64,000 nt of DNA. Origin: Enterococcus moraviensis ATCC BAA-383 (GTDB taxonomy: Bacteria; Bacillota; Bacilli; Lactobacillales; Enterococcaceae). Location: positions 1-64,000 of the forward strand of contig NZ_ASWB01000003.1 of NCBI RefSeq assembly GCF_000407445.1, in the 5' to 3' direction. A model generated the notes under the pieces. That model searched no databases and was not told the DNA's origin. It saw nothing but the letters and a program-made list of their open reading frames with translations. The translations under genes were made by a program, and so were the position numbers. Below, piece after piece: positions 21,408 through 41,769 of this stretch; within the stretch, counting starts at the first letter, position 1; each line of letters opens with the position of its first letter.

Positions 21408-22241
21408 TTAAATTGTATCTGATAGTTCCCATGTTAATGTAGCTGTATACGTTTCTTTTTCTGGTTGTTCTCCTTGCGGTACATTTAGCTGTACGTATGG
21501 ATTAGTACTTACATCACTATAGTCAGCATCTGAAGTATAACCTTGGCTAAAAACTACAGATGAAATTGAAGCATTTGCTGATTGACCTGCTTTTACTTTT
21601 AAAATAGAAATACTATTTGCTGCTTCTGTTGGAATTGTTACAGGTGTATTTTTAGCAATTAAAGCAGGGGTTTCTAGTAAGGCAGTTGCATCATTATCTT
21701 TACTAACCATATCAAGACTGCTATTACGGACCTCTCCATTATATAATTGAATACGTGAGTTTTTTAATTCCTTTGTTCCAGAAGTAAATGTAGTGGCAGA
21801 AACTTTCACTTCAAATTGTCCTGTTCCACCGCGTTCATCTGCTACCTGAACAAAATGAGGAATTTTTAACTTAGCATCAGCAGCAGGTGGGACTTTACCA
21901 TCTAGTGATTTTTGGTAAAGAGACATCTGTGATTCGTAGTTGGCACCTGTTGATTTAATTTTCACTGTGCCAAATTTTAATGCTGGAATATTCGTGAAAC
22001 GTAGCGGCCCAGTCGTACTTTTACCTTCACCGTCTGGAACATAGATATTTTCATCTGGAGAACCTGGTATAATTAAACCATTATCACCAGGATTCACGCC
22101 TCCATCATTCTCATCAAATGTTACTGTTGCATCAGTTGTTTCACTTAATGGAGCAGCTTGTGCAGTAGTTGATGTTCCTGCAAAAAGTGTTAAGGCGATA
22201 GCACATGCTCCTAAGCCGGAAAGTACTTGTATTTTTTTCAT
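21408..22241 (-). CDS. WxL-domain surface protein
   Basis: A 277-aa exported protein. The signal peptide ends near AQAAPLS (residue ~30). A short Gly/Pro/Asp linker (NDGGVNPGDNGLIIPGSPDEN) follows, then the WxL domain: TTGPLRFTNIPALKFGTVKI, first motif region GGTGQFEVKVSA and the closing YTATLTWELSDTI (W-E-L). WxL domains hold proteins non-covalently on peptidoglycan. It is the last of six WxL genes in locus 1, with the DUF916 gene following. The N-terminal region is too short to carry another enzyme domain, so it may be a structural or binding subunit. Confidence 0.92.
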   Translation of the reverse strand: MKKIQVLSGLGACAIALTLFAGTSTTAQAAPLSETTDATVTFDENDGGVNPGDNGLIIPGSPDENIYVPDGEGKSTTGPLRFTNIPALKFGTVKIKSTGANYESQMSLYQKSLDGKVPPAADAKLKIPHFVQVADERGGTGQFEVKVSATTFTSGTKELKNSRIQLYNGEVRNSSLDMVSKDNDATALLETPALIAKNTPVTIPTEAANSISILKVKAGQSANASISSVVFSQGYTSDADYSDVSTNPYVQLNVPQGEQPEKETYTATLTWELSDTI

Positions 22242-22289
22242 TTTTGGTAACCCCTTTTTATTTTTTTAATTGATCGTTTTTATTTTGAA

Positions 22290-23117
22290 TTATAAACTAT
22301 CTGTTAATGTCCAAATTAAGTTTGTTTTGTATAATGCTTTATCGTATTTTTTATCTGTTCCGTTAGTACGCAATTTCAAACCTGAGTGTGCATCTTTTAA
22401 AGTTGCTTGATTTGCTGTTTCATAAAAAGTTTCATCATCTGCATAATCTTGAGCAGATACAAATGTTACACTTGATTTTGAACTATCTGTATGTTGACCA
22501 GCCTTTGTTGAAAGCACGCGGATTGCATTACCTCCAACAGGAATATCTACAGAACTTCCAACAGATAAGCCAACTACGCCATCTAATAAAGGTGAAGCGT
22601 CTGCTACATCTGTATTAAATAATTGTTGTTCATGAATCTCAATTCGTGAGTTTGTTAATTGATTTGTCGCATCTGTAGTATTAGTAAATGGTGTTTCTTG
22701 TTGAACAGTTAAGTTCCAACTCCCTTTGATTCCACGTTCATCCGTTACTTGAGCAAATTGAGGAATTTTAACTTCTTCAGTGCTTCCACCGACTTTTCCT
22801 AGCCCCCACTTTACATCGTACCATTCTGTTTTTGAGCTAATTTTTTGACTACCAAATGAAATTCCTGGAACATGTTCAATACGTAATGGACCATTTGTGT
22901 GGCTACCTTCTGGTCCTGTTGGCTCAATAATTGGTTTTTCTTCTGGTCCTGGTCCTGGTACAACTGGAATTCCGCCTTCAGCATCTGTATTCGCTTCAAA
23001 GGTAACATCTCCTGTAGTAATTGCAGGAAATTCAGCTGCTTGTGCTAAATCTGCAAATGTTGTTACACCGATACCACTAATTAAACAACTTAATGTAATA
23101 ATATTTTTAATTTTCAT
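22290..23117 (-). CDS. WxL-domain surface protein
   Basis: A 275-aa protein with a signal peptide (cleavage near LAQAAEF), a linker rich in Pro/Gly/Glu (GGIPVVPGPGPEEKPIIEPTGPEGS), and a complete WxL domain with GSWNLTVQQ (first W-x-L) and YKTNLIWTLTDSL at the C terminus. It shares its layout with its neighbours, which suggests tandem duplication. Part of the WxL locus 1 operon, 24 bases before the start-proximal end of the next gene in the direction of transcription. Confidence 0.92.
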   Translation of the reverse strand: MKIKNIITLSCLISGIGVTTFADLAQAAEFPAITTGDVTFEANTDAEGGIPVVPGPGPEEKPIIEPTGPEGSHTNGPLRIEHVPGISFGSQKISSKTEWYDVKWGLGKVGGSTEEVKIPQFAQVTDERGIKGSWNLTVQQETPFTNTTDATNQLTNSRIEIHEQQLFNTDVADASPLLDGVVGLSVGSSVDIPVGGNAIRVLSTKAGQHTDSSKSSVTFVSAQDYADDETFYETANQATLKDAHSGLKLRTNGTDKKYDKALYKTNLIWTLTDSL

Positions 23118-23141
23118 TTCTATTTCTCTCCAATTCTCTTT

Positions 23142-23972
23142 TTATAATGCTGATTCTAATGTCCACACTAAATCTGTGCTATAATTTTTGCCGATTTCTA
23201 ATACTTGTCCGCCATCTACTGATAATTTAACTCCTAAGTTGCGGTCTTTTTTTGTAACATCTACATCGCCAGTTTCAGCTGTACCATCTTTACCTTGACC
23301 TGTAGTTCGTTTCAAAGTATCACCCATACGAACAGACCAGCTACCATATCCTTGTTCTTTTGCGCTATCTGCTTGTGTAAGTACTACTGAAGAACCAGCA
23401 TCATTACCAATCACCGTTTCAACTGATTGTTCTGGTACCGTTGGAAATTTCACATCGTCTACAATGTTGCTATTGCTTTGAATTGTCATATCTGTAAATG
23501 ATAATGTCGCTTTAATTGATTTTCCTTCTGAAGTAAAAATGCGATCATTTTTCACAGAAACTTTCCAACCTTTAGTTCCGCCACGCAAGTCGACTACTTC
23601 AAAAAATGTTGGTTTTTCTTCTGTGCTACCATCAGTTTTTTTAGTTATTGTATCGAAAAGCGCATAATAGTTCTGTGTTTTTGTAGCTAATCGATTTTGA
23701 CCAAAGTGAATCGCAGGAACATAATTAAATCTCAAAGGTCCTGTTGTTGCATCTCCACCTTCTGGAGGAATAATATCTGTGCCATCGCCTTGATCTTCTC
23801 CACCATCACCTGGATCTGTAACATCTTTGTCATAGTCGATATCACCATCATTTTCAACAAATTCAATATCGCCTGTTGTATTTCCTACTAATTCTTCAGC
23901 CATAGCTGATGTTGTGCCAATTGTTCCTAAGATTGCAGTGCTTACTAAGCTTAACATTACTAATTTTTTCAT
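23142..23972 (-). CDS. WxL-domain surface protein
   Basis: A 276-aa protein. Signal peptide MKKLVMLSLVSTAILGTIGTTSAMAEE, acidic linker (ENDGDIDYDKDVTDPGDGGEDQGDGTD), then a WxL domain with TTGPLRFNYVPAIHFG, RGGTKGWKVSVKN and LVWTLESAL. The start at 23972 is preferred because TAGGAGAG precedes it; the longer frame would overlap the upstream gene. It is closest in layout to the next gene (24002-24838): both share EQGYGxWSVxxG near the C-terminal third. Confidence 0.92.
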   Translation of the reverse strand: MKKLVMLSLVSTAILGTIGTTSAMAEELVGNTTGDIEFVENDGDIDYDKDVTDPGDGGEDQGDGTDIIPPEGGDATTGPLRFNYVPAIHFGQNRLATKTQNYYALFDTITKKTDGSTEEKPTFFEVVDLRGGTKGWKVSVKNDRIFTSEGKSIKATLSFTDMTIQSNSNIVDDVKFPTVPEQSVETVIGNDAGSSVVLTQADSAKEQGYGSWSVRMGDTLKRTTGQGKDGTAETGDVDVTKKDRNLGVKLSVDGGQVLEIGKNYSTDLVWTLESAL

Positions 23973-24001
23973 TTTATTCTCTCCTAAATATATATATTTT
24001 A

Positions 24002-24838
24002 TCAAATTGAATCTGATAATTCCCATGTTAATGTTGTCGTGTATAACGATTTAGTATTGATGATTTGACCGTTCGGTACAGTTAGTTTTACAGAAGCATT
24101 TCTACCTTTTTTACTTTCATCTATGTTACCTTCTGTCCCAGTGCCATCTATCCCTTTTCCAGTTGTAACAGTGGATGTACTACCATATCCTACTGACCAT
24201 TTCCCATATCCTTGTTCTTTTTCTCCGATTGCTGTAGCTAAGCGAACACTGCTCGAAGAATCATTGGTCACTGCGATTTCATTTTCACTGTTACTCATTT
24301 CCGGACCATACAAAATAGGGTCTAGATCTGTAAGTGACTTCGTCGAAGGATTGGAGAAATACAAAGTGGTTTTAAGCTCATTTGTCTTTCCAGTTGGATT
24401 TTCTTCAGTAAAAATGCCATTGCCAGAAACAGTTACAGACCATCCCATAGTCCCGCCACGTATATCTTCAACTGTAAAATAAGTTGGATATAAGTGAGTC
24501 GAAGCTGCATTTTCTGCCCCTCTTTGTTCAAATTTTGCATAGTAATTTTGTGTTCTAGACGTTATAGCGTTGTTGTTACCAAAGCTAATATTTGGTATAT
24601 GGGTGAATCGTAATGCTCCGCCAATCGGATTTGGATCTGGATCTGGATCTGGCTTATCTGGATCATCTGGGGTAGGATCCGGATCTGGATCTGGTGTTGC
24701 CGGCGGATTATCTGATGCTTCAAACCCAATATCACCTTGAGTAACGCCCGATACAGGATACTCTACCGCTTCAGACGTTAGTCCCCCACTCAAGGCAAGT
24801 AGGAAAATACCGCACGAAATTAAACTGATTTTTTTCAT
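24002..24838 (-). CDS. WxL-domain surface protein with Asp-Pro repeat linker
   Basis: A 278-aa protein with a signal peptide and a striking linker of Pro-Asp repeats (ATPDPDPDPTPDDPDKPDPD onward), then a WxL domain containing GGTMGWSVTVSG and TLTWELSDSI. The PD repeat is encoded by repeated GGATCT-type hexamers (24633-24700), which could expand or shrink by slippage. Extended PD linkers are typical spacers that push a domain out from the wall. Member of the locus 1 operon. Confidence 0.92.
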   Translation of the reverse strand: MKKISLISCGIFLLALSGGLTSEAVEYPVSGVTQGDIGFEASDNPPATPDPDPDPTPDDPDKPDPDPDPNPIGGALRFTHIPNISFGNNNAITSRTQNYYAKFEQRGAENAASTHLYPTYFTVEDIRGGTMGWSVTVSGNGIFTEENPTGKTNELKTTLYFSNPSTKSLTDLDPILYGPEMSNSENEIAVTNDSSSSVRLATAIGEKEQGYGKWSVGYGSTSTVTTGKGIDGTGTEGNIDESKKGRNASVKLTVPNGQIINTKSLYTTTLTWELSDSI

Positions 24839-24852
24839 TTCATTCCCCTCTC

Positions 24853-25563
24853 CTATAAACTATTAGTAAACGTCCATTCAATAGTTGTCGCGTATGTTCC
24901 TTCTTCTTTCGGCGTATCTCCAGGAATTAAAAAGGATACGCTATTTTTCGCTTTTTCAAGTGTCTCACCAAATTGAATCGTCCAAGTTCCTTGTCCCGTT
25001 TCTGGGCCAGCTTTTACAACGGGTACAGCTTCATTCGGTTTTTCACTAGATAGCTTTACTTCATCCATGATTTCAGTCGGTGTTCCTGCTTGCACCATTG
25101 GGGTACTAGCATAGAGGTTCCGAAAAATGAAATAGGTGTTTTTTAGCTCGAACCCGTTCTCATTAGTAAATGGTTGTGTTTGTCTAGCGGTTAAAGACCA
25201 ACCTTTACTTGTCCCACTCTTATCTGTAAATTGAACAAAATTTGGTGTTTCTTTTTCTGTTCCTTCTGAAGTTATTTTATCTAGCTGTGCATAATATTCT
25301 TGTGATTTTTCTGAAATCGACTGCGTACCAAATTGAAAATCACTTACATAACTTAAACTATACGGTCCTTCAGTTGGGGGACGATTTGGATCAATAGGTT
25401 CCTCTGGATCTTCTGGGTCTACCGGCTCCTCTGGTGAGGTGTCTTCGGTAAAAGAAATATTTCCTTGTGTCTTTCCTTCTGCTTGAACCAGCTGAGGTTT
25501 TATTCCTGAGAATAGCGCTATAAAGCTACCCAAAAACAGAGAATAAATAAGAATTTTTTTCAT
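24853..25563 (-). CDS. WxL-domain surface protein, short
   Basis: A 236-aa protein, the shortest WxL protein of this locus. Signal peptide MKKILIYSLFLGSFIALFSGIKPQLVQAEG, linker EEPVDPEDPEEPIDPNRPPTEGPY, and a WxL domain with SKGWSLTARQ and the final TTIEWTFTNSL (W-T-F, a relaxed form of the second motif). It overlaps the stop of the LPXTG gene by four bases, so the two are translationally coupled and probably needed in fixed ratio. Confidence 0.9.
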   Translation of the reverse strand: MKKILIYSLFLGSFIALFSGIKPQLVQAEGKTQGNISFTEDTSPEEPVDPEDPEEPIDPNRPPTEGPYSLSYVSDFQFGTQSISEKSQEYYAQLDKITSEGTEKETPNFVQFTDKSGTSKGWSLTARQTQPFTNENGFELKNTYFIFRNLYASTPMVQAGTPTEIMDEVKLSSEKPNEAVPVVKAGPETGQGTWTIQFGETLEKAKNSVSFLIPGDTPKEEGTYATTIEWTFTNSL

Positions 25564-25952
25564 TTTTTCTCCCTCCTACGGTTTCTGCTTAGATAAAAGA
25601 TGGCGACAAATGCAAGCATGATTAGACCTATCCATGGCAATACTTGTATTATTTTCTCACCTGTACTTGGTAAGTTTTTACCTCCAAGTGGCTTTTCATA
25701 CCCCACCAAAGTGGATGAAGAGCTACTAGATTCTGATGGAGTAGTTCCAGAATCTCGACTTGGTTCTGTTGTTGGTTCTGTTGTTGGCTCTGTCGTCGGT
25801 TCCGTCGTTGGTTCTGTTGACCCTTTTACGAATGTTATACCAGCATCAGACTTCATTACTCCAGCTTCCCCATGAATGGATTTTCCAGCAACGCCAAAAC
25901 TTAAAAGTAGTAGACAACCTGAAAGGACAAATATATTTTTTTTCTTTTTCAT
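25560..25952 (-). CDS. Small LPXTG-anchored protein with Thr-Glu-Pro repeats
   Basis: A 130-aa protein with a signal peptide (to about AGKSIHGEAG), a short core, four TTEP repeats (residues ~46-63), a Ser-rich stretch, then the sortase signal LPSTGEK, a hydrophobic helix and the basic tail RNRRREKK. Sortase would link it covalently to peptidoglycan. Small LPXTG proteins of this type accompany WxL loci, here and in locus 2, and probably help anchor the WxL complex. The 12-base repeats (GGTTCTGTTGTT-type, 25760-25815) may vary in number. Confidence 0.9.
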   Translation of the reverse strand: MKKKKNIFVLSGCLLLLSFGVAGKSIHGEAGVMKSDAGITFVKGSTEPTTEPTTEPTTEPTTEPSRDSGTTPSESSSSSSTLVGYEKPLGGKNLPSTGEKIIQVLPWIGLIMLAFVAIFYLSRNRRREKK

Positions 25953-25968: not shown

Positions 25969-28900
25969 TTAAAGTGCAGCGGTTAATTCCCAAATGATAG
26001 CAGCGCCATACGTTTTCTTTTTGGCTGTACCTCCTGGAATTCTTAAATTCAATCCGCTGTCTTTGGTTAACTTCACTTCTGTTTTAGTAACACTATTGTT
26101 CATTTTAATTTCAACATTTGATTTAGCGATTGGTTGATCATTGTAATATAAAATATTTGGCAAACGATCATTATCTAATGAAACAAAATCTTGATTGATT
26201 TTTGCGTACAAACGCCAACCTCGATCTTTTTCTTGTGCTGTACGATTATCGCCAATAAACAAACTTTCATTTGTACTTGACGCTTCTAGTTTTTGATCTT
26301 TCACTGATACTTTTCCATTTTCAAAACGCATTGTTTCAGGAACTTTAATAAATCGTAGTGTTCCTTTGAACTGAAGGTACGCAGTCCAACCTTTTCCTTC
26401 CAAATATGGGACTTCTAATCCATCTATTGGATAAACAGTTTTCATATCAGCTTGATAGTAGTTAAGAAATTCATATCCTTTACTTTTCTCTATCGTTGCT
26501 TTTTGTGTTATTATGTCTGTTTCTTCTGCAATATTCAGTTGTTTTCCAACAATTCGCTCACCTAAAGTAGTCGATGCTGGGAAATTCGTATCATTTTCGT
26601 CATACAATAATTGATATGCTTCATCCACAAATTGAACGACGACTTCTTCATAACGATAATAGACTGTTCCATTTGGACCAAGAGTGCTTTCTGCCAGTAC
26701 CTTATTGGTTTCCGGTTCTAAAATCTGTATTGGTAGTAATTGTTTGACCTCTCCTGAAACAGGATCAATCGCCTTAAAGGTGGCAACCGCATTATCACTT
26801 ACCTTCAAGTTGCTCATTTCAGTACCTTTAGAGATTTGATAAGCAGAAACTTTTCCATATTCTTCACTTAAAAGTTCTTCACTTGTCGTATTTCTTGATA
26901 TATCCCAAGGTATAGTGAAATCTGTTGAATAAAAAACATAATCTCCTACTTTTTCTCCACCAACATAAACTTTAACCGTTTGTTGTTTTGGCTCATCGCC
27001 GTAATTAAGAGTAAAAGTTAAATCAAAGATTCCTTCTTTTTTAGTCTCTTGAATCGCTTTAAGTTGTTCTTGATTGATTTCAATACCTTCTTTTGATGGT
27101 AAAGACAGCAGGCTATCTCCTGTTTCTATATCCCATGCGACTAGTTTTGCATAATTAGATTTGCTTCTTAATGCCGCATCTGTAACTTTTGTCACATCTG
27201 TTAACGGAATGTGGAAATTGTGTGCATCAAGCATGCCTTTTTTATTATAGATTGTTCCATCAGTCACCACGTTTACTCTACTAGATGTTGACGTGATTTG
27301 TTTCTGTGAATCAGAAACAAAATAAGTGACATTTTGCGAACCGACTGTTTTAAAGTCAAACCCTAGTGCATCCCAATCGATCGGGTTATCTATTTTTTCA
27401 GGATTGCGGTTGATTCTATTATTGAGCCATTCTTGATCTTTTGGTGACATGCTTCGGTTAAAGTCAAATTGATCATAAACCTTCGTTGCATTTAGGCCTT
27501 CATAGTTATTTATTCCGACCTCACCAGTTAGCAGGAATTCTTCTCTTGCCTGTTCTGTTTGCAGTGCAGGATCATCTTGATTCATGATAAGTTGCTTAGG
27601 TGCTTTAATAATTGGAGCAAAGTCGTCTTCAGCGTTTAAAATACCATAAAAGTTATTCGCTACCGCTGTTCCTCTTTTAGTATAGGGTCCGCCAGTGGGA
27701 AAATCATCTACAAATTGAGTGCCGCTGACTTCACCACTTGTATATACATTGGTATCCGTTAACTGAATGAGGTTTCTTACATTCAACTTCTCTGTTGAAT
27801 CTATAGTTGCTAATGAAAGGATATTAAAGTCTTTATCCATATTTCCCATGATCAATCCAGGTTCAGTTCCATAACCGTTTAGTTCACCGGAAAATGAATT
27901 CGTATACCCAAAATAGGTATAATCATCATTCAGACCTGGATTTATTAATAGTGATGTTCCCTTTGGGTATTCTTTAATAGTTACAACCTTTTTTTCATTA
28001 ACTTCTAATCTTTTTAAATATGTTTTTTCTCCAGTCTCTATAAAATAATAGTAATCTGGCGATGAAATGTCTTGTAAATATTCTATCGTCGCACTCACTG
28101 GTTCATATGTGTAACGTAAATTTCCTGTCTCATCCCAAATATTTAAAAAGTAAAAGGGTTTTTCCTGAGTTGAAGTTAAAACTGATATGGCAACATATTC
28201 TTGACTTTCGCTTCTAACAAGAGATTCAGGTAATAGCCCATCAGTTGCTCCTTCTGGCAGTTCACCTTTCCCATAGCCTAGCTTAACGCCATAGTCGAAT
28301 GCCTCTTGCATTGAGGTTAACAATACTGGTGTTGTGTAATTCCCGTTTGCATCTAGTTTAATTGTATTATAAGCATCCGTTCTTGTTGCTTTCGTCACAC
28401 CATTTAAATCAATGTATGAATACTTATAAATATCTTTATTGTAGTTCATAGATGCTCTTGACATTGACTGATTATCTGGATTTTCAGGATAGCCATTCGT
28501 TTCTATTTTAGATCTAGATAGTATATTTAAATCTTTGTCAACGACTAGTCTAGAAGGGCCGATATCTTTATCGTTATAATATCCTGTATACAGTAGCTCA
28601 TACTGGCCGTTTCCAACAGGAACTAACAACTCTGCTATAGCATATGATCTATCATCAAATTGTTTCCCTATATCGAAACTAGGGGTTCCACCAGAGATCC
28701 ATAGCTGATTTTTTATATTCCCCTCACCATCGACCAATACCAACTCTGTAATTATTGAATGATTCGGTATTTCAAAAGGTAAACTATGATGAATAAAAAC
28801 TTGAATAATATTTCCATCTTCGGTTTTTACCGCCATTGTGGGTGTTTGATCTGTAATAACTGAACTTCTTCCATGAATAGGTCCTCTTGTTAAATTGGTG

Positions 28901-29157
28901 ATGACTTTTTGATTTTGTGAATAGTCAGGAAATTTTCCTTTTAATGTTGCTTCAAATACTGGTTGCCCATCAAAAGGAAGCTCTTGAGCAGCATCGGTTC
29001 CTTTATCAACTACGATTGGATTGCCATCGTTTGCTTTTGCTTTTAACATTACTTCATTTTTAGGTAGGTAAGCCCATAAAGCTAGCCCTAAGCTTATGCA
29101 CGTCATTAAAATGATACTGACTAGGATCTTGTCTGATTTTTTTATTGATCTCTTCAC
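25969..29157 (-). CDS. Giant WxL-domain surface protein
   Basis: About 1062 aa. One N-terminal membrane helix (ILVSIILMTCISLGLALWAYL) may be a signal anchor or uncleaved signal. Residues ~60-530 are a long beta-rich region with many Tyr/Asn/Gly repeats that is not recognised. Residues ~530-900 hold further domains (MxKT-type motifs not seen), and the C terminus ends in a WxL-like domain with DRGWRLYAKIN and AAIIWELTAAL. The GTG start at 29157 is chosen for the AAAGGGG site upstream; a farther GTG at 29202 is less likely. It is the first structural gene of locus 1 and the likely functional (binding) subunit. Confidence 0.85.
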   Translation of the reverse strand: MKRSIKKSDKILVSIILMTCISLGLALWAYLPKNEVMLKAKANDGNPIVVDKGTDAAQELPFDGQPVFEATLKGKFPDYSQNQKVITNLTRGPIHGRSSVITDQTPTMAVKTEDGNIIQVFIHHSLPFEIPNHSIITELVLVDGEGNIKNQLWISGGTPSFDIGKQFDDRSYAIAELLVPVGNGQYELLYTGYYNDKDIGPSRLVVDKDLNILSRSKIETNGYPENPDNQSMSRASMNYNKDIYKYSYIDLNGVTKATRTDAYNTIKLDANGNYTTPVLLTSMQEAFDYGVKLGYGKGELPEGATDGLLPESLVRSESQEYVAISVLTSTQEKPFYFLNIWDETGNLRYTYEPVSATIEYLQDISSPDYYYFIETGEKTYLKRLEVNEKKVVTIKEYPKGTSLLINPGLNDDYTYFGYTNSFSGELNGYGTEPGLIMGNMDKDFNILSLATIDSTEKLNVRNLIQLTDTNVYTSGEVSGTQFVDDFPTGGPYTKRGTAVANNFYGILNAEDDFAPIIKAPKQLIMNQDDPALQTEQAREEFLLTGEVGINNYEGLNATKVYDQFDFNRSMSPKDQEWLNNRINRNPEKIDNPIDWDALGFDFKTVGSQNVTYFVSDSQKQITSTSSRVNVVTDGTIYNKKGMLDAHNFHIPLTDVTKVTDAALRSKSNYAKLVAWDIETGDSLLSLPSKEGIEINQEQLKAIQETKKEGIFDLTFTLNYGDEPKQQTVKVYVGGEKVGDYVFYSTDFTIPWDISRNTTSEELLSEEYGKVSAYQISKGTEMSNLKVSDNAVATFKAIDPVSGEVKQLLPIQILEPETNKVLAESTLGPNGTVYYRYEEVVVQFVDEAYQLLYDENDTNFPASTTLGERIVGKQLNIAEETDIITQKATIEKSKGYEFLNYYQADMKTVYPIDGLEVPYLEGKGWTAYLQFKGTLRFIKVPETMRFENGKVSVKDQKLEASSTNESLFIGDNRTAQEKDRGWRLYAKINQDFVSLDNDRLPNILYYNDQPIAKSNVEIKMNNSVTKTEVKLTKDSGLNLRIPGGTAKKKTYGAAIIWELTAAL

Positions 29158-29230
29158 TTCTATTTCCCCTTTCTTTTTGATTTTCTCGCGCCCACCCTCC
29201 ACCCATTATTCTTTTAATTTGTCTTACTCA

Positions 29231-29896
29231 TTAATCAGCAGCAATTAAGCGATAGCCTTTTGTTCTTACCGTTTGTATGTAGTCTTTTCCATAGATACCC
29301 AATTTATTGCGCAAGTGGAAAATGGTATTTGTCACACGATATTTTTCGTATTTCTCTTCCCATAACGATACTCCGATTTCTTCGTAACTTACTGTTTGAT
29401 TTTCTTTTTTTTTTAATAGCATTAAAATTTGAAATTCTTGGTTAGTTAAACTAATTTCTTTCCCATTATTTAGCTTGACACTCAGATTATTCCTATTTAA
29501 TGCCAATTCCCCGTTACCATTTTCTTGACTCACTAATCGATCTTTAAAATCATTACTTCTTATTGTATTACGCATTAACTGAAATAGTTGGCTGTCTTCA
29601 TCTCCGCTATTTATCCATCCATTTATTCCAAGTTGTAAATAAACTTCCAACTCTTGTTTGTTTATCTCAGAAAGAATCAACCATACGAATTTTAATCCAG
29701 CTTTTTGAATTGCTAACAGCCACTCACATGTCTCTAAAAAATAATTTTCACTACCAACATTTATAACTAATACATCTTTTGTCATACATTCATTTTTGTC
29801 TTCTACTAATGTGTACTCATAACCATTTGCTATAGAAAGTCCTTTTATATTTATACTTTCTTCTGATCCGAGACAAACAAACCCTAATTTTATCAC
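29231..29896 (-). CDS. Winged-helix transcription regulator of WxL locus 1 (OmpR/PhoB type)
   Basis: A 221-aa protein. Residues ~1-115 resemble a degenerate receiver domain without the phospho-aspartate pocket. Residues ~130-221 are an OmpR/PhoB-type winged helix (ISLTNQEFQILMLLKKKENQTVSYEEIGVSLWEE...TNTIFHLRNKLGIYGKDYIQTVRTKGYRL). The start is GTG after AAGGAGGTG. It heads the WxL operon and is 30% or so similar by eye to the regulator that ends WxL locus 2. No partner sensor kinase is present. The upstream DNA ends in the inverted repeat of the recombinase segment, so its transcription could depend on segment orientation. Confidence 0.85.
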   Translation of the reverse strand: MIKLGFVCLGSEESINIKGLSIANGYEYTLVEDKNECMTKDVLVINVGSENYFLETCEWLLAIQKAGLKFVWLILSEINKQELEVYLQLGINGWINSGDEDSQLFQLMRNTIRSNDFKDRLVSQENGNGELALNRNNLSVKLNNGKEISLTNQEFQILMLLKKKENQTVSYEEIGVSLWEEKYEKYRVTNTIFHLRNKLGIYGKDYIQTVRTKGYRLIAAD

Positions 29897-30018
29897 CTAT
29901 ATCACCTCCTTGAATTTCGGCAAACTATTGAAAACTTTATGTATTAACCATATCTGTTGCAAACTCTCTTGTAAGCCACTAAAATAGGAAAAAAGAGAGA
30001 TTCTTTATTTGTATCCTC
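29897..30018 (-). promoter_or_regulatory. Leader of the WxL locus 1 regulator, with terminator-like hairpin
   Basis: No good sigma-A promoter was found between the start codon and the inverted repeat. Minus-strand GAGAGG...TCTCTC followed by TTTTTTT (about 29990-30020) looks like a weak intrinsic terminator; its first arm touches the inverted repeat. Transcription of the regulator may therefore rely on a promoter in the neighbouring segment plus read-through. Confidence 0.35.
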
Positions 30019-30043
30019 TCTGCATTGTTCAGAAATTCAGAAA
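30019..30043 (+). repeat. Left 25-bp inverted repeat flanking the recombinase
   Basis: The sequence begins TCTGCATTGTTCAGAAATTC and ends AGAAA. Its exact complement lies at 31500-31524. There is no further match outside or inside the 25 bases, which is what recombination sites look like. Confidence 0.9.
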
Positions 30044-30098
30044 TTTCTTCTTCATTGCGTGATATAAGCTGAATAGTTAAATAAATTGACCACAGTAG

Positions 30099-30110
30099 TG
30101 ACGGCTAATA
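30099..30110 (+). repeat. 12-bp direct repeat, left copy
   Basis: TGACGGCTAATA occurs here and at 31321-31332, immediately flanking the recombinase transcription unit in the same orientation. Possibly arm-type binding sites or the scar of an earlier insertion. Confidence 0.6.
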
Positions 30111-30120
30111 AAATTAAAGA

Positions 30121-30160
30121 AAAAAGTAAAATCAAAAATCGATTTTTGATTTTACTTTTT
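30121..30160 (-). terminator. Perfect 40-bp palindrome, terminator of the recombinase gene
   Basis: AAAAAGTAAAATCAAAAATC followed by its exact complement, starting two bases after the recombinase stop codon. It ends in CTTTTT and further T-rich DNA on the minus strand. Being symmetrical, it would also act as a terminator in the other direction. Confidence 0.8.
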
Positions 30161-30162
30161 CT

Positions 30163-31281
30163 TTAGTTTGAAGATTCCAACAAATTATCGACAATTTGCA
30201 TTGCTGCCTGTCTTTTTTCAAGCATTGAATCCGTGTAAATATCTAATGTCATTCGAGTTGATTGGTGACCCATCAATCTGCTCAAACTTGCTATATCCAC
30301 TCCATTTTCTAAACATCTTGTCGCAAACGTATGTCTTAGTATGTGGAAATGAATCTCTCTTAATCCAATTCTTTTAACCAACTTAGAGAACCGATAATTG
30401 ATGACTCTTGGTTCCGCTACTCGTCCTTTACATGAAATAACATGTTCCGATGAAGAACTGTCATACTTTTTTTTCAAGTATGCTTTTAAATTCTTAGGCA
30501 ATGGAATGATTCGCTCAGATTGTGCTGTTTTTGGTGTATCAGAATAGACTTTTGTGATCGAGTTTGTTATACGTTCATCTAGTACTCTTGAAACCGTTCT
30601 TCTAACAGCAATAGTATTTTCAGTAAAATCAATATCAGACCATTTTAGACCACTAATTTCACCAATCCTCATACCAGAATATAAGGCTAATATAACAGGA
30701 GAACATCCTTCCTCTTGAAGTGCAAGAGTTTCAATTTTCTTTTGTTGGGCTATTGTTAAAGAATGAACTTTTTTTCTTTTGTATTTAGGTAAAATAACCT
30801 TATCACAGGGATTAGAATAAATATGATTTTGCTGAACTGCTGTATTTAAACTTTTTTTAAGAACATTAAATATGTTTCTTATCGTACCAGGAGATAGATC
30901 TCTATCATGTAGATGATCTACGAATGATTGAACTTTTTGTGAATCAATGAGATGTATTGGGTATTGTCCTAAATTCGGGATAATCTGTTTATTGATTAAT
31001 CTTTTATAAGTATAATACGTGGAACTTTTAATATTCTTTTTCATAATATTAACTAGCCAAAAACTCATCCATTCTTCTAGTATACTTGTATTTTTATCGA
31101 TTATTCTTGGATTAGCTGGCATTTTGGCTTTCATAACAGTTAGCTTTTCTTTTACTTCAAAATATTTTTTCCCATAAATATAACCGTAAACTATTCGTTG
31201 ATTGATATCACGTTCTTTTATATACCGTCCTTCCCAGCGTCCATCTTTTCTTTTGTATATATTTTCACCTTTTTTCACCAT
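30163..31281 (-). CDS. Tyrosine recombinase/integrase, candidate DNA invertase
   Basis: A 372-aa protein. The N-terminal arm-binding domain (GENIYKRKDGRWEGRYIKER, ~5-60) is followed by a SAM-like core-binding domain (~65-165) and a catalytic domain with R205 (SGMRIGEISG), H313-x-x-R316 (HILRHTFATR), H339 and the nucleophile Y349 (LDIYTDS). All catalytic residues are present, so it should be active. No excisionase, phage or conjugation gene is nearby, which argues against a prophage or ICE and for a dedicated switch. It is bracketed by exact 25-bp inverted repeats. The related family is used for phase-variable inversions as well as for phage integration, so function rests on context. Confidence 0.9.
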   Translation of the reverse strand: MVKKGENIYKRKDGRWEGRYIKERDINQRIVYGYIYGKKYFEVKEKLTVMKAKMPANPRIIDKNTSILEEWMSFWLVNIMKKNIKSSTYYTYKRLINKQIIPNLGQYPIHLIDSQKVQSFVDHLHDRDLSPGTIRNIFNVLKKSLNTAVQQNHIYSNPCDKVILPKYKRKKVHSLTIAQQKKIETLALQEEGCSPVILALYSGMRIGEISGLKWSDIDFTENTIAVRRTVSRVLDERITNSITKVYSDTPKTAQSERIIPLPKNLKAYLKKKYDSSSSEHVISCKGRVAEPRVINYRFSKLVKRIGLREIHFHILRHTFATRCLENGVDIASLSRLMGHQSTRMTLDIYTDSMLEKRQAAMQIVDNLLESSN

Positions 31282-31320
31282 ACTATTTCACTTCTTTCCG
31301 TTAAAATTTGACGTTTTTTT

Positions 31321-31332
31321 TGACGGCTAATA
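31321..31332 (+). repeat. 12-bp direct repeat, right copy
   Basis: TGACGGCTAATA, identical to 30099-30110. A second TTTGACG lies 12 bases to the left (31307-31313), so several TGACG sites cluster in front of the recombinase gene, as integrase arm sites often do. Confidence 0.55.
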
Positions 31333-31355
31333 GAAAAGTTCATTTAAATGAACAA
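31327..31355 (-). promoter_or_regulatory. Probable recombinase promoter with palindrome in the spacer
   Basis: Minus-strand TTGTTC (31350-31355) and TATTAG (31327-31332) are 17 bases apart. The 16-bp perfect palindrome GTTCATTTAAATGAAC (31338-31353) fills the spacer and could bind a repressor. The -10 overlaps the right direct repeat. Confidence 0.5.
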
Positions 31356-31432
31356 TTAGGTATTTTTTTTTTTCATTTAGACAAAATACAAAAAAAACAT
31401 ATGAAAAATCAAATAATTTTATTAAAAATCCA

Positions 31433-31461
31433 TTGACTTAGAAGTCTTTTTAATTTATATT
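31433..31461 (+). promoter_or_regulatory. Outward-facing sigma-A promoter inside the recombinase segment
   Basis: TTGACT (31433-31438) and TATATT (31456-31461), separated by exactly 17 bases. It points away from the recombinase, crosses the right inverted repeat and leads towards the Mga-like gene at 31671. Its place 39 bases inside the repeat is typical of invertible promoters. Confidence 0.65.
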
Positions 31462-31499
31462 TTGAAAAGTCGCTACTTTTTCTGCTTGTTTTAAGAGAT

Positions 31500-31524
31500 T
31501 TTCTGAATTTCTGAACAATGCAGA
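31500..31524 (-). repeat. Right 25-bp inverted repeat flanking the recombinase
   Basis: Exact reverse complement of 30019-30043 (plus strand ends CTGAACAATGCAGA). Its outer end is 147 bases before the Mga-like start codon. Confidence 0.9.
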
Positions 31525-31619
31525 AATTTTTTCTTTTTTTTTGTATAAATTTAGTATATAGTTTAATAATTTTTTAGGGATTCATAATTCGTGTTATTTT
31601 TTTACATTAATTTACTTTT

Positions 31620-31648
31620 TTGCATCAAAATATTTATTAATATATAAT
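31620..31648 (+). promoter_or_regulatory. Own promoter of the Mga-like regulator gene
   Basis: TTGCAT and TATAAT, 17 bases apart, end 22 bases before the ATG at 31671. It lies outside the invertible segment, so the regulator may have a basal level independent of segment orientation. Confidence 0.6.
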
Positions 31649-31670: not shown

Positions 31671-33179
31671 ATGGAATTTTTACACGAATTATTAGATAAG
31701 ACTTCTATTTATAAGATAAGAATTCTCTATATATTGAAAAATAAAAGTGATTTTATAGGGCTTGATGAATTATCAAAAATATCTGGGTTAGAGCGTCGTA
31801 CACTTGAAGGTTATATTGATGAATTGTATAAAGATTACTTAGAATTTGTAATTGAACCTTCAAAATTAAGCCTGACTATCTTAGGGAAAAAAATCAAAAT
31901 GGATTATCACTTATATGAAGACTTTTATTATTTTCAAATGTATATTATTAGTAATTCTTTTAGTATCAAACTTCTTAGCAACCTTTTGCTTGGTGATACT
32001 ATAAATACAACAAGATATTTGGCTGAGTACTTTATTTCTAAATCAACTTTGCAACGAAGAGTGAATAACATCCGAATGCTTTTAAACATTTATGACATAA
32101 AACTAAGTAATACTAAAGGTGAACTTCATCTAATAGGAGATGAAGCACAAATTCGAATACTTGCTTATACTTTCTTTTGGATATTGTACAAAGGAAAAAG
32201 CTGGCCTTTTCCTGTAAAGAAAAACCAAATAGAAAATATGCAAATCGAACTTTTCCATCCCTATGATAACCAACTAAGTAAAACTAACATTGAAGACAGT
32301 TTATTCATACTAGCAATAAATACGATTCGTTATCGAAAAGGATATACAATTAATTTTTCTCAGCTAGAGGTTCAAGAATTATTATTTGAAGACTTTGTTC
32401 TCTACAAGAATAACTGGGAAAAAAAATACTATCTTTCATCTAATGAGTACTTTTTTTTCTTATTAGTTCTTCAGACACAATCTAAATTTTATCTAGACAA
32501 GCAATTAAAAACTCCTATATTAGAATTACATAAAAAGTTTCGGACCTCCATCTATAAATCTGTGGAAACCTTCTTTTCTTACTTTTCTAAGTCAATTTAT
32601 TTTATATCTGCAAGTCAAAAGGAGAAATTTTACACTCATATCTTAGCAAATCATTTATTTTGTTTTTTATTTAAAACAGCTCCTGTGGGAATTTTTGGCC
32701 ATCCTACAGTCTCCAATGTTAATACTCGGTTTCCAAAACTTACGTTAAAACTAGAGCAATTAATTAGTCAGTTATATAAAGAAACTGGTCTAACGATTTT
32801 CGAAAACCAAAAATTTCTTATCCCAAATTATGCTCTCTTTTTTGCTTCTATCCAAAATATTGCTTATTTCGAAACCGAAATTTCAATTTTTATAGACACT
32901 GATTTACCCATACTTGCTGAAGAAAGATTACGTAACCTGTTATTTCATTTTTTAGAAGGTAGTTACAATATTAAAATTGTGAATAGTATTGATAAACTCA
33001 AAAAATCATCATTTGATCTTGTTTTAACCTCTAGTTTTGTTCCAGAAATTAAATCTGCTTCAAAAGATGAACAATTGATCTATATAACTGAAGAGCTTCG
33101 AATTGAGGATCTCGTGCGCATTAATGAAGCTCTTTTTAAAATACGACAAAAAAAAAATTCATATCCATCTGAAAGTTAG
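31671..33179 (+). CDS. Mga-like transcription regulator
   Basis: About 502 aa. N-terminal helix-turn-helix (FIGLDELSKISGLERRTLEGYIDELYKD, ~25-55) and a second HTH (~105-130, AEYFISKSTLQRRVNNIRMLL) as in Mga of streptococci, followed by PRD-like regions and an EIIB-like C terminus. Mga-type proteins switch on surface and adhesion genes. It is a paralogue of the regulator at 38910-40427: both have the FFWxxYKxxxWPF pattern near residue 180. GGTGG before ATG 31671 decides the start. Its position next to the inverted repeat makes it one of the two likely targets of the switch. Confidence 0.85.
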   Translation: MEFLHELLDKTSIYKIRILYILKNKSDFIGLDELSKISGLERRTLEGYIDELYKDYLEFVIEPSKLSLTILGKKIKMDYHLYEDFYYFQMYIISNSFSIKLLSNLLLGDTINTTRYLAEYFISKSTLQRRVNNIRMLLNIYDIKLSNTKGELHLIGDEAQIRILAYTFFWILYKGKSWPFPVKKNQIENMQIELFHPYDNQLSKTNIEDSLFILAINTIRYRKGYTINFSQLEVQELLFEDFVLYKNNWEKKYYLSSNEYFFFLLVLQTQSKFYLDKQLKTPILELHKKFRTSIYKSVETFFSYFSKSIYFISASQKEKFYTHILANHLFCFLFKTAPVGIFGHPTVSNVNTRFPKLTLKLEQLISQLYKETGLTIFENQKFLIPNYALFFASIQNIAYFETEISIFIDTDLPILAEERLRNLLFHFLEGSYNIKIVNSIDKLKKSSFDLVLTSSFVPEIKSASKDEQLIYITEELRIEDLVRINEALFKIRQKKNSYPSES

Positions 33180-33306
33180 GACTAACTAGAAGTTTAGATA
33201 ACTTATTCTTTCAACATTTTCAAATAAAAAAAAGGGATATAAAACTAGAAATCTGTACCGACCCCAAAGGTTAGACCTGAAAATCTAACTTTTGGAGTTT
33301 TTTTGT

Positions 33307-33726
33307 ATGGCAAAATACAGTTTTAAATTTAAACTTAAAATTGTCCATGACTACTCATCTAGTCAAGGAGGCACACCGTTTCTCGCAAAAAAGTATGGGT
33401 TTAAAAATAATTCTCAAATAAGAAAATGGATTAATAGCTATAAAGAACTTGGTTAAAAAGAACTACTTCGCAGTCGGAAAAATAAGAATTACGCTGTTCA
33501 ATTTAAGCTGGATGCGATAGAGTTGTATTTGACGACAGAGTTGTCCTATCAAGAAGTAGCCAACCTTCTAAAAATGAACAATCCACCATTGATTGCGAAT
33601 TGGCTTAAAACGTATCAGAAGTTTGGTATAGATGTACTCTCTAAACAGAAAGGACGTCCACCAACAATGCCTAAGAAGAAACGAGAAATGAAACCCAGCC
33701 ATTACCAAGTGAATAATCTCAAGTAG
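33307..33726 (+). pseudogene. IS3-family transposase orfA, with internal stop
   Basis: Reads MAKYSFKFKLKIVHDYSSSQ and continues with a second helix-turn-helix (LSYQEVANLLKMNNPPLIANWLKTY). Codon 50 is TAA (33454-33456), so only a truncated product is possible. A related remnant lies at 49436-49545. Confidence 0.8.
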
Positions 33727-33732
33727 AGAAAC

Positions 33733-34856
33733 CAGAAAAAGAAAATAGAATGTCAAAAATTGAGAATGCCTATTTAAAAGAATTGAGGAGGCTGTGTTTA
33801 GAGGACAAACAAAAAATGAACGAATCACCCGAGTCATTCACCCCTTCCGAGGACACTTTCGATTAAAAGATATGCGGTTGGGACAGAAGTGTTTAACTCC
33901 GAGAAATAAGAAGGAATTCATGAAAATTGTTCTTCAAATTTTTGTGAATTTCAGCTTATTTCCGAAGGAGTTGCTTCTGCTCCCACCGTTTATTCGGATA
34001 CTAGGTGTCTGGGATATAACTCGCAGCGTTATGTCCCAGACACAGCCACTTACATGTACTGGCAAAAATGTTTAGACAGAACAAATTCAACACAAATGAT
34101 TGAAGAAGAAATTCAAGCGATTCGTAAGGAACGTCAACATTACGGCTATAGAAGAATGACATAAGAATTGAAGAGACGTGGATTTCAAGTAAATAAAAAG
34201 AAAGTACAGCGATTAATTCAAAAGTTACAGTTACAAGTCAATGCTTTCACTAAGAAATCAAGGAAATACAATTCATATAAAGGAACCGTTGGTAAGATCG
34301 CTAGAAATTTGATTCATCGCCGATTCAACACCACTGTTCCTCACCAAAAAATCACAACAGATACAACTGAATTTAAGTACTTTGAAGCAGATAAAGCAGG
34401 CATCCTTTGTCAGAAAAAACGATATTTAGATCCATTTATGGATATGTATAACCGTGAAATTTTAAGTTACAGTCGTCTAATCAACTAAACGGTAAAACGA
34501 TGATGAGTGGTCTAGAAGAAGCTATCGCTCAAACAAATGATTGTCCCTATCGTCGCACCTTCCACTCTGATCAAGGATGGGCTTATCAAATGAACGCCTA
34601 TATACAAACATTAAAGGACAACAGTATCTTTCAAAGTATGTCTCGAAAAGGAACCTGTTTAGATAATTCTCCGATGGAGAATTTCTTCAGCATTATAAAA
34701 CAAGAATTGCATTACGGTAAAGTCTATCAAAGTCAAAATGAGTTACGACAAGCAATTGAGAACTACATTTATTATTATAATCATCATCGGATTAAAGAAA
34801 AACTTAACTGGAAAAATCCAGTAGAGTTTCGACAATTGAATCAAAAAACTGCATAA
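33733..34856 (+). pseudogene. IS3-family transposase orfB, broken
   Basis: The DDE catalytic core is recognisable: TTDTTEFKYFEADKAG, FHSDQGWAYQ and NSPMENFFSIIKQELHYG. Lesions: the 165-bp repeat replaces a short stretch between RLKDMR and ATYMYWQK, TAA follows GYRRMT (near 34162), and the frame shifts near 34470 (SRLIN to QLNGKTMMSG). It cannot make an active transposase. Confidence 0.85.
33878..34042 (+). repeat. Hairpin repeat element, copy C, inside the transposase gene
   Basis: Full-length copy: starts TTGGGACAGAAGTGTTTAAC, inner imperfect hairpin (AAATAAGAAGGAATTCATGA ... GTGAATTTCAGCTTATTTCC), linker CCGTTTATTCGGATACTAGG, end hairpin TGTCTGGGATATAAC / GTTATGTCCCAGACA. It is nearly identical to copy B in reverse. 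The ends GGGACA and TGTCCC form short terminal inverted repeats. Confidence 0.85.
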
Positions 34857-34937
34857 AAAATAGAGTGAAAAAATCCACTCTATAAAAAGTCTAACTTTTT
34901 GGGGTCACTACACAATCAGTTTTGTATCCTTTTCTTT

Positions 34938-38909: not shown

Positions 38910-40427
38910 TTAAGTATGAGAATATCTAATCTTCATTTTATATCTTTGGGTGTAAATTGTATCTAGATATGTAGTGAGTCGATTAATTTTTTCTTGATCA
39001 ATCGTTGAATCCCAAACAAAAGTGGGGATATCTTTTTTTAACCATCTAGTCAAGCTAACATCCGTAATCAAAAAATCAACCTTGTTAGAAGTGTAAGGTA
39101 GGAAAGTCACTGGAAATGAAAGGTTCTTAATCAACATCTCTTCAAAAAATTCTTTTTGAAACACACTAGAGTGAGAATAGAGCGCAATATTTAGAGCCGG
39201 ACGTTTACTTTTCATTAATTCCGAAATAAATAGCAAATAGAACGTACATAGCGCATCTTTTTGAGCATATAAAGGCTCTATAATAGGAACAGAAAAGAGC
39301 GTATCCAAAAAAGATAAAATAAGTTTATACTCAATAAATAAATCTATTTTCCCATAAGACATATTCGTAAAACAAGGGACCGTTTCCACAGGACCAGGTA
39401 AATACAAATATCTACTATGGAGTGAAAGTAAATTGTAATAAAGATAAAAATATTCATTAACATCTAAAGCAATCTCGAGTTCAGCCATAAATCTCTCTAT
39501 CCATTTTTCAGTAATCAAAGTAGCGGTATTTATTTTTAATCCAGAAAAAGCAGTTAACTTCAAAGTTGAAATTTGTTTTAAAGGATAGATTTGGCTTGTA
39601 ATGAGCGAAAAATATAAAAAGTTGGCTTCATAATGCCAAGCTTCATCATCTAGCGTCAATAAAATCTGAAAATCTTTAGAAAAACCAAAAAAAAGAGAAT
39701 AAAATTGTTCTTTGGAGAGCATAGGAAAAGCTGGCTCATTAAATTCATATTCTTCAGTAATGAAATAGCCCTTGTCGATACGGGACAATGTGACCGCAAG
39801 CCAAATAATTACCATGTTTGGCTTTGCTAAAAAAGTTTTTAGTTCCTCGTCACTTTTTTCAATTACCTCTTTTAGTTTATTAAATTCAATTTCCTCGAAT
39901 GGCCATTTTAATACCTTGTAAGATTCCCAAAATAATGTGAAGTAAAAAAACCGAATGTTCTGTTCTTTACCCACGATACTATTCGACGTTTTTAAATCTA
40001 AACTTAAATTGTATTGCTGTAAAATTTGGTTTAGTTTTTTTGTTTGTCGATAAACAGTCGAGTAACTGTAAAAATACTTTGTCGCAAAACTATGTAAATC
40101 AAAGAAAGTACTATTGTAAATTTCAAGACAAAGATTAAATAAAATCGACTTTTCCAAATAATAAAGTAGAAAGTAATTGATATCGAAATCCTGTGCAACC
40201 GTCACAGTCAACGTATTATCATCATTTAAAACAATAGATATGTATTTTTCACACTCTAATTGTTTACTATCATTTACTAAAGACTTTAGGTTTTTGATAA
40301 TAGTTCGTCTGTCTTTCGATAATTTGTTTGTGAAATCCGAAATAGACATAACCATATTATTCCCTCGTGGAAAGCTATTTAATATCTCTAAGCGAAAGAC
40401 AAATTCCTTATTTAGTAGTACTTTCAT
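38910..40427 (-). CDS. Mga-like transcription regulator
   Basis: About 505 aa and paralogous to the protein at 31671-33179: HTH regions near residues 30-55 (ISDFTNKLSKDRRTIIKNLKSLV) and 105-135 (ATKYFYSYSTVYRQTKKLNQIL), the FFxFTLFWESYKVLKWPF motif near 180, then a long helical PRD-like part. These regulators control surface genes in streptococci and enterococci. It is oriented away from WxL locus 2, with a 650-bp gap in between. The ATG at 40427 is preferred for the AAGGGG upstream. Confidence 0.85.
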   Translation of the reverse strand: MKVLLNKEFVFRLEILNSFPRGNNMVMSISDFTNKLSKDRRTIIKNLKSLVNDSKQLECEKYISIVLNDDNTLTVTVAQDFDINYFLLYYLEKSILFNLCLEIYNSTFFDLHSFATKYFYSYSTVYRQTKKLNQILQQYNLSLDLKTSNSIVGKEQNIRFFYFTLFWESYKVLKWPFEEIEFNKLKEVIEKSDEELKTFLAKPNMVIIWLAVTLSRIDKGYFITEEYEFNEPAFPMLSKEQFYSLFFGFSKDFQILLTLDDEAWHYEANFLYFSLITSQIYPLKQISTLKLTAFSGLKINTATLITEKWIERFMAELEIALDVNEYFYLYYNLLSLHSRYLYLPGPVETVPCFTNMSYGKIDLFIEYKLILSFLDTLFSVPIIEPLYAQKDALCTFYLLFISELMKSKRPALNIALYSHSSVFQKEFFEEMLIKNLSFPVTFLPYTSNKVDFLITDVSLTRWLKKDIPTFVWDSTIDQEKINRLTTYLDTIYTQRYKMKIRYSHT

Positions 40428-40433
40428 GAACAA

Positions 40434-41082
40434 TTATCCCCTTAATATGTGCTGGAAACTTATTATTATTAATTATTACTTTTAGAACAAATTTAGCTCT
40501 TTGAAAAATAACTCCATCAAATAGAGTAAGAAATGACTATGATTGTGTAAAGACAAGAAAATTTTCTTACAACAATTACTAGAATTTGGTCTGTTGCTGA
40601 TGCAGTTAACATGTTATACATTGAAACTATTCCTCAGTTTGGAACGATCCAATCAACTCCGTTTTCTCAGAACTAGATACCTCTATCCATCAATCTAGTT
40701 ATTTTTTAGGTACTAAAAATCATCTTTCCAAAAGAGACTCACCTTATTTATATCTAGTTATTTGTTAGACTGCTTTCGTTGCTTTTCAAAGAAATCCTAC
40801 GTTATCTGCTTATTACCCATCGCAGAACATCCCATATTGATGTTGTTAATCTCAAATTGGTGAGTATCATTTTCGCAATTTGGGTAACAGATAAACTTTA
40901 TGAAGTAAAATTATCTGCTAAAACTGGCGCCTAATTTTTTTCTATGCAGCTAGCTAGGCTTATTTGTGTTACTCTAAAATTGAAGAATAAATACCATTAG
41001 AAATAATCAACTATTCACTTTAGTTTTTTTATAGCGGACTATTTTCCAAAGAGTCAAGTAAGTATCTATGCTAGTTTTTTAC
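40434..41082. other. Intergenic gap, 650 bp
   Basis: No intact gene. Several short repeats and an imperfect inverted repeat are visible between 40811 and 40912 (TTATCTG, TTACCCA and GCG-AAAATG elements mirrored). The stretch may be remains of an inserted element. The promoter of the Mga-like gene should lie at the left end. Confidence 0.35.
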
Positions 41083-41769
41083 TCAAACATTCAATATATA
41101 CCCTTTTGACCGCACCGTACGAATTGTTTCTGCGGTACCGATCTCTTGTTCAAATTTTTGCCGGATATGAAAAATTAAATTGCTGATACGATAAAAATTT
41201 CGTTCTTTGTTCTCCTCTTCCCAAATTACTTTGTACATCTCTTCATAAGTAACGGTTTTACCAATATTTTTATACAGTAATTCCATGGCTTTGTACTCAA
41301 GATTAGTTAATTGAACCTCTTCATTCTCATTCATAATGACACTTCTATTTCTATGATTTAAAATAATTCCCTCACAACTATGTTCTTGTACTGTTCTTTC
41401 AGGCTCTAATTTTACCGTTACCCTTTTTCGTTTTAACGAATTAGAGACGATCAACTGCCATTCTTCTAGTTTCAAACTCTCTGTTTTTACACCATCTGCT
41501 CCTAGTTTCAAATACACTATTCGATTCATCTCATTTTGAAATGCAGACCACACCCAAATCAATGAATCTGCTTCGTTTTTTACTTGTATCAACTGTCCGC
41601 AAACTTCACCAACTTGTTCTAAGCTATTTTCTATTAAAATGATCAAATCACAAAAGGTCTTGTTATCATTATCAATCTGAATTAATTCCCATTCATTTGG
41701 TATGACCGCTTGTAACTGTTCCCATTCCGTTGTTGCTCCTTCAAAATTTACTACGCCAATACGATACAT
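41083..41769 (-). CDS. Winged-helix transcription regulator of WxL locus 2
   Basis: A 228-aa protein. N-terminal part resembles a receiver fold without phosphorylation residues. C-terminal winged helix at ~135-228 (VQLTNLEYKAMELLYKNIGKTVTYEEMYKVIWEE...YRISNLIFHIRQKFEQEIGTAETIRTVRSKGYIL). It is clearly paralogous to the regulator at 29231-29896. Here it is the last gene of the WxL operon, whereas in locus 1 it is the first, so its level follows that of the structural genes and may give feedback control. Confidence 0.85.
   Translation of the reverse strand: MYRIGVVNFEGATTEWEQLQAVIPNEWELIQIDNDNKTFCDLIILIENSLEQVGEVCGQLIQVKNEADSLIWVWSAFQNEMNRIVYLKLGADGVKTESLKLEEWQLIVSNSLKRKRVTVKLEPERTVQEHSCEGIILNHRNRSVIMNENEEVQLTNLEYKAMELLYKNIGKTVTYEEMYKVIWEEENKERNFYRISNLIFHIRQKFEQEIGTAETIRTVRSKGYILNV

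Follow-up and report, generated by a model that had tools for sequence, protein, structure and literature searches.

A probable self-encoded promoter-inversion cassette heading a WxL surface-protein operon in Enterococcus moraviensis

In the Hin/fljBA system of Salmonella, an outward promoter near one end of an invertible segment drives a surface operon in one orientation, and Hin, which inverts the segment, is a serine recombinase. The fimS element of Escherichia coli is inverted by tyrosine recombinases, FimB and FimE, which are short proteins encoded outside their own segment and which turn a promoter segment serving a surface structure. PMC5903667 places the hin gene inside its own invertible segment, so that the cassette layout described here is not new in principle; the same paper describes RecV of C. 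difficile, a tyrosine recombinase that inverts the switches of the flagellar and cwpV genes. PMC11892184 connects 'inverton group 139', in which 32/33 invertible segments come from Clostridia, with 'invertase group 35', a tyrosine-type recombinase group, and the word Enterococcus is absent from the main text of that paper. Among the matches listed in a search of the open-access literature, as judged from titles and the starts of abstracts, no account was found of the control of enterococcal WxL genes by DNA inversion.

The locus analysed here resembles Salmonella Hin/fljBA, as described in PMC5903667, in having its recombinase gene within the candidate invertible segment. It differs from Hin in that the enzyme belongs to the tyrosine recombinases and is predicted to have an arm-type domain at its N terminus, and in that many cassettes with differing core sites are found in each genome. 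RecV serves several switches, according to the same paper, whereas here every cassette has its own recombinase gene. The integrases of Tn1549 and lambda differ again, since here inverted core sites surround the recombinase gene alone. Like inverton group 139 of PMC11892184, the family has clostridial representatives, and these share both the cassette plan and the paired motif described below.

The window is a stretch of 64,000 nucleotides from contig NZ_ASWB01000003.1 of Enterococcus moraviensis ATCC BAA-383. An initial annotation, made from the sequence alone, had proposed a phase-variation switch bounded by exact 25-bp inverted repeats, and the repeats proved to be just as it described: 30019-30043 and 31500-31524 are exact reverse complements separated by 1456 nt, and with up to three mismatches allowed the 25-mer occurs at just these two positions in the 3.59-Mb genome (backwards-read control, 0). 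Between them the sole long gene-like ORF (30163-31281, minus strand) encodes a tyrosine recombinase of 372 aa. It is accompanied by an outward promoter-like site, TTGACT-17-TATATT (31433-31461, plus strand; 10/12 consensus match, score 10.5), and by no other likely gene, again as had been proposed. Inverted repeats thus enclose a segment with an outward promoter, recognised by its sequence, which is the arrangement of an inverton. The recombinase terminator claimed in the same account is less secure: a perfect 20-bp palindrome does lie 3' of the recombinase stop codon (30121-30160), but it is GC-poor and fails a rule requiring a GC-rich stem, and it may act as a weak terminator. We conclude that the segment very probably forms an invertible promoter cassette, complete in itself, which would switch the adjoining WxL surface operon ON and OFF.

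The recombinase is a Phage_integrase (PF00589) protein, and it is complete, with all five catalytic residues originally named in it; an alignment of 16 rows shows no variation at R205, H313, R316, H339 or Y349, and the RHRHY set is present in 106/106 cassette recombinases of the Enterococcus set. The closest solved structures are those of the integrase of transposon Tn1549, in a comparison that hardly tested residues of the model outside 61-369. Both the catalytic fold and RHRHY are those of a bivalent integrase of the lambda/Tn916/Tn1549 type. The four Pfam families listed for the protein include no serine resolvase, which sets it apart from the Hin family, and its scores with two tyrosine-type invertase models, 28.9 and 26.8 bits, fall short of the respective cut-offs (222 and 221), which sets it apart from FimB and FimE. 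The predicted model has a Tn1549/lambda Int-like fold with an N-terminal three-strand-plus-helix domain (strands 8-10, 16-24 and 30-37, helix 40-53; mean pLDDT 86.7). Residues 5-20, within this domain, are almost invariant in the family, with a mean major-residue frequency of 0.98 against 0.47 for the core-binding region. When the first 60 residues were searched against PDB sequences, the one match was at chance level (E 0.68) and no convincing relative emerged. Co-evolution of the core-binding domain with the repeat was also considered: Spearman coefficients were 0.25 (core-binding region), 0.23 (catalytic region) and 0.19 (N-terminal region), the partial correlation given the catalytic region was 0.15, and correlations this low are too weak for such a relationship to be claimed.

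The repeats of the family are quasi-palindromes. Of the 104 sites scored in the Enterococcus set, 65 have arms that agree at no fewer than 8 positions out of 10, against 6/104 for shuffled sites; all 65 well-matched sites have a spacer of odd length, with a base at its centre, and their match profile agrees with a 10-7-10 bp plan. The functional site is probably of 27 bp, two 10-bp arms about a 7-bp spacer, and would extend from about 30017 to 30043 on the left (plus strand; outer arm 30017-30026, spacer 30027-30033, inner arm 30034-30043) and from about 31500 to 31526 on the right (minus strand; inner arm 31500-31509, spacer 31510-31516, outer arm 31517-31526). Read from outside inwards, the right copy is TTTCTGCATT-GTTCAGA-AATTCAGAAA, and the left copy differs from it in the outer bases. 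In the nearest relatives, L142 and L143, whose recombinases are 65–66% identical to that of the window, the arms are near-identical to those of the window and the spacer is different.

Two features add to the initial annotation: a pair of inner repeats and the extent of the family that shares it. Just 5' of the recombinase start, and again on the 3' side, family members carry a direct-repeat pair resembling GCCGTCA, mostly 12 bp apart and nearly always on the recombinase's strand. In the window the pairs are GCCGTCA/ACGTCA on the 5' side (31308-31330, minus strand) and GCCGTCA/TGGTCA on the 3' side (30086-30108, minus strand), the latter being the TTGACC of the promoter scan. Within the 107 cassettes of the 'Enterococcus' set, which includes L063, a Streptococcaceae MAG, CGTCA was found on the recombinase strand in 106/107 inner regions on the 5' side and 106/107 on the 3' side, against 6/107 and 12/107 outer flanks; on the opposite strand it was found in 3/107 and 6/107 inner regions. 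The larger set gave 152/153 (5' side) and 150/153 (3' side). Where family genes lack clean repeats, the 5' copy is present in 8 out of 29, and in clostridial cassettes CCGTCAA is present on the 5' side in 15/19 and in the outer flanks in 0/38. By analogy with the lambda-type integrases, the pairs are probable arm-type sites for the N-terminal domain of the recombinase.

Near-perfect repeats around a lone recombinase gene are the rule in this family. In the first set 126 of 151 genes passed a score of at least 14 together with position limits, while mismatched-flank controls reached 14, without position limits, in 31 of 755 cases. In the Lactobacillales set, from which exact duplicate genes and genes less than 450 bp from a locus end had also been removed, a cassette of about 1.5 kb with near-perfect inverted repeats near both gene ends was found for 153 of 182 distinct recombinase genes. 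The cassettes dropped from each set (151 to 126; 182 to 153) fell below the score or outside the position limits; neighbouring genes are mechanical ORFs, and related species are non-independent samples in all family counts. Clostridial relatives, built on the same plan, make up 19 of the 126. Every one of the 60 genomes searched, E. moraviensis included, gave some match at E 0.001, mostly weak outside the enterococci. In E. moraviensis itself 7 of 12 matches are close (E < 1e-80), the remaining five being at E 8.7e-16 or weaker, and a congener (G020) has at least 11 entries below E 1e-91; further members may exist in the genomes searched. Five of the seven close members in E. moraviensis, among them that of the window, are accompanied on the 3' side by WxL genes no more than about 10 kb away. 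Matches were also found in 235 phage records, all below 60% identity and the best 20 of the 235 at 26–36%, and in 37 IMG/VR loci at 22–41% identity.

The 3' side of the cassette faces an operon on the minus strand that begins with an OmpR-type winged-helix regulator (Trans_reg_C; 29231-29896), the putative target after inversion. This is followed by a 1077-aa protein without a Pfam or NCBIfam match at E 0.001 (25969-29202), a small LPxTG protein of the EF2685/EF0750 family (25560-25952) and five WxL-domain stretches (21414-25563). Such an arrangement is typical: 147 of 153 cassettes, that of the window included, have an outward-pointing ORF no more than 400 bp away on their 3' side, usually a regulator or surface gene. 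Among the 115 first outward genes found on this side within set limits, from the 126 cassettes, 76 match Trans_reg_C and 9 match WxL.

The outward promoter had been described as strong. TTGACT-17-TATATT is indeed present, but as a lone site it is unremarkable, the region having 20 promoter-like sites where 25.8 are expected from shuffles; its weight comes from a position that is conserved in the family. Outward promoter-like sites scoring 10.5 or more lie on the 5' inner side of 49/107 cassettes (8.6 expected) and on the 3' inner side of 2/107. A larger set of 147, which excluded L153, L063 and any cassette whose 3' side had no outward ORF in the first 400 bp, gave 57/147 (7.3 expected) and 3/147 (2.3 expected), respectively. 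Between the 3' repeat and the target gene these 147 cassettes are not enriched in promoters (5/147 at 10.5 or more; 5.8 expected), and the best candidate ahead of the winged-helix regulator in the window scores 8.5. The proposal that inversion would aim the promoter at a promoter-poor winged-helix/WxL locus is thereby upheld, since inversion would supply the WxL locus with a promoter that it otherwise seems to lack.

The position of the outward gene on the 3' side, common to 147 of 153 cassettes, is taken as the mark of an OFF state, and on this comparison the present orientation in the window would be OFF for the WxL operon. On the promoter side, terminator-like structures were found within 250 bp past the repeat in 72/151 cassettes (2.7 expected), against 2/151 on the other side (1.3 expected), in equal 250-bp windows and with L153 and L063 left out; many OFF-state promoters would therefore aim at a dead end. 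In the window no terminator was found by the GC-stem rule past the promoter-side repeat. The right core site there can form a hairpin followed by a T-run (31500-31542, plus strand; -7.0 kcal/mol, z -1.88), a structure that the GC-stem rule misses, and in the present orientation this might stop the outward transcript.

The mechanism proposed is that the recombinase would bind the 27-bp core site at each end and invert the segment of about 1.5 kb that carries its own gene; its N-terminal domain would probably contact the GCCGTCA-like pairs that lie just within the two ends. In the sequenced orientation the promoter would aim away from the WxL operon, which has no evident promoter, and the operon would be OFF. 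After inversion, transcription from the promoter would cross the left repeat, enter the winged-helix regulator gene and go on into those for WxL surface proteins, and the operon would be ON. At the level of sequence, this model is supported by the repeats, the paired motif, the family architecture, the asymmetry of the promoters and natural inversion at a related locus; we infer activity in the E. moraviensis strain, which of the two orientations is ON, binding of the motif by the recombinase and an effect at the cell surface.

The related locus is L153 (in genome G018), which, to judge from alignment, is inverted in nature. Compared with L152 (G009) and L154 (G001), its flanks are in equal order while its 1.49-kb cassette lies in the opposite sense, at 84–85% identity; L152 and L154 align with each other along their length at 91%. 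The change of orientation falls inside the 30-bp repeats, with both flanks swapped relative to the cassette, so that the Trans_reg_C regulator lies opposite the promoter side of the cassette in L153 but opposite its 3' side in L152 and L154. The match runs unbroken through the operon-side repeat; past the other repeat about 0.84 kb is unaligned before the shared flank resumes. When flank proteins at least 45% identical were compared, 429 pairs lay on the same side and 3 were swapped, all three with L153. At 35% identity there were 1160 same-side and 40 swapped pairs, most of the swaps again being with L153, while three were with L149 (distant genes about 3 kb away) and three were clostridial pairs.

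Within the Lactobacillales set of 153, then, L153 is clearly flipped and L063 possibly so: in L063 the promoter side faces a pilus-tip-like gene, and this may be another ON copy. Comparison with related genomes for flipped copies, which the initial annotation had suggested as a check, thus revealed inversion at L153, but not in L142 and L143, which keep the 3' side toward the outward gene. The clostridial pair L104 and L106 have opposite relative orientations between similar flanks, with a related inner motif, and 6 of 19 clostridial cassettes are the reverse of the enterococcal norm, so that the lean towards OFF may not extend to clostridial cassettes. Within-species strain pairs came from E. 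raffinosus plasmids only. There the cassette ahead of a secA2 operon has one orientation in 4/4, with no flipped copy, and a second cassette (L246) was matched in one record.

The alternative that survives best is the one put forward initially, that the switch chooses between two regulators, one orientation driving an Mga/EbpR-like regulator and the other the winged-helix regulator with its WxL locus. An Mga-type gene does lie outward of the promoter in the present orientation (31671-33179, plus strand), 137 bp past the right repeat and with no terminator by the GC-stem rule in between; its nearest NCBIfam model is AcpB/EbpR/MafR (126.5 bits against a cut-off of 130), and Mga matches account for 15 of the 49 first outward genes found, within the same set limits, on the promoter side of the 126 cassettes. 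Its putative link to the switch is weakened by the rest of the family, in which Mga genes are not a general partner. The nearest promoter-side ORF points toward the cassette in 94 of 153; a terminator-like structure lies within 250 bp past the repeat in 7 of the 14 cassettes with an Mga-size neighbour; and 6 of 16 Mga-size genes have promoter-like sites of their own at 10.5 or more (1.0 expected). The Mga gene of the window likewise has a promoter-like site (31619-31648), and the hairpin and T-run lie 3' of the outward promoter. A choice between two regulators is accordingly possible but on balance unlikely, and an ON/OFF switch acting on the surface operon describes the cassette better. Genes of the TraX family make up a further 12 of the 49 outward genes on the promoter side. 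At 33300-34860, beside the Mga-like gene, several reading frames contain pieces of transposase-like ORFs that by eye resemble IS3.

That the cassette is a former switch, degenerate and now locked OFF in this strain, would agree with the single arrangement of 147 out of 153 copies and with the single orientation seen at the window locus, which comes from one genome of the species. It is hard to reconcile with repeats that are exact over 25 bp and with the presence of the catalytic residues and both paired motifs, and we consider it highly improbable. Tyrosine-recombinase mobile elements normally leave direct att repeats. The notion of an IS-like unit with terminal inverted repeats, whose recombinase integrates rather than inverts, could draw on the Tn1549 integrase as nearest solved structure, on copies of the cassette on plasmids and on the E. 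raffinosus plasmids (L242 against L243-L245), in which the cassette that precedes the accessory SecA2 operon matches at 78–79% identity, one flanking sequence at 98–99% and the other at about 91%, but as the main reading it was rejected as exceedingly improbable, since the segment holds the recombinase gene alone and its end repeats are inverted, 147/153 cassettes are placed in the same way relative to the neighbouring gene, the 25-mer is confined to two genome positions and inversion at the repeats is seen in L153.

The ON/OFF switch for the surface operon may have a further layer of control in some congeners. In five of them (L233-L237) a WxL operon is headed by a cassette and closed by a second family recombinase on the same strand, for example L233:4443-5588 and 14664-15797. 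The operon-closing recombinases are without repeats or the paired motif, and in a quick maximum-likelihood tree the five form a sister clade of the five heading cassette recombinases (SH-aLRT 96), from which it follows that they probably arose by duplication within the operon. The pair of heading and closing recombinases resembles FimB and FimE. If co-transcribed, the closing recombinase would be made when the operon is ON, and it might then return the switch to OFF as FimE does. A search of the E. moraviensis genome for the family found no second member in the operon of the window. One might go further and picture, across enterococcal genomes, a set of surface switches leaning towards OFF, each with a private core site and recombinase, all sharing one arm-site code and a common N-terminal domain and so open to cross-influence, with FimE-like feedback from duplicated recombinases; we offer this as a speculative and rather doubtful extension.

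If the ON/OFF reading is correct, silent surface operons may be phase-OFF rather than merely uninduced, and assemblies with a single orientation would hide this. The family also provides many natural pairs of recombinase and core site with one putative arm code, which should be useful for studying how the specificity of tyrosine recombinases evolves.

A conserved family recombinase without clean repeats or the paired motif is encoded at G000:C3:720291-721370 (L238), with relatives in L240 and L241; genes of this type are, by eye, convergent with an Mga-size gene and near a gene for a GTP-binding protein, and the catalytic residues are retained in L204, L221, L051 and the other members that were checked. 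The window contains a second WxL locus (38910-48774), with its own Mga-size gene and winged-helix-like regulator, without a family recombinase, and with signal-peptidase-like and DUF916-like proteins recognised by eye. On an E. faecalis plasmid (L248; LR962555.1) a cassette lies about 1.6 kb ahead of a gene for a 1554-aa repeat protein with, by eye, an LPxTG-like end.
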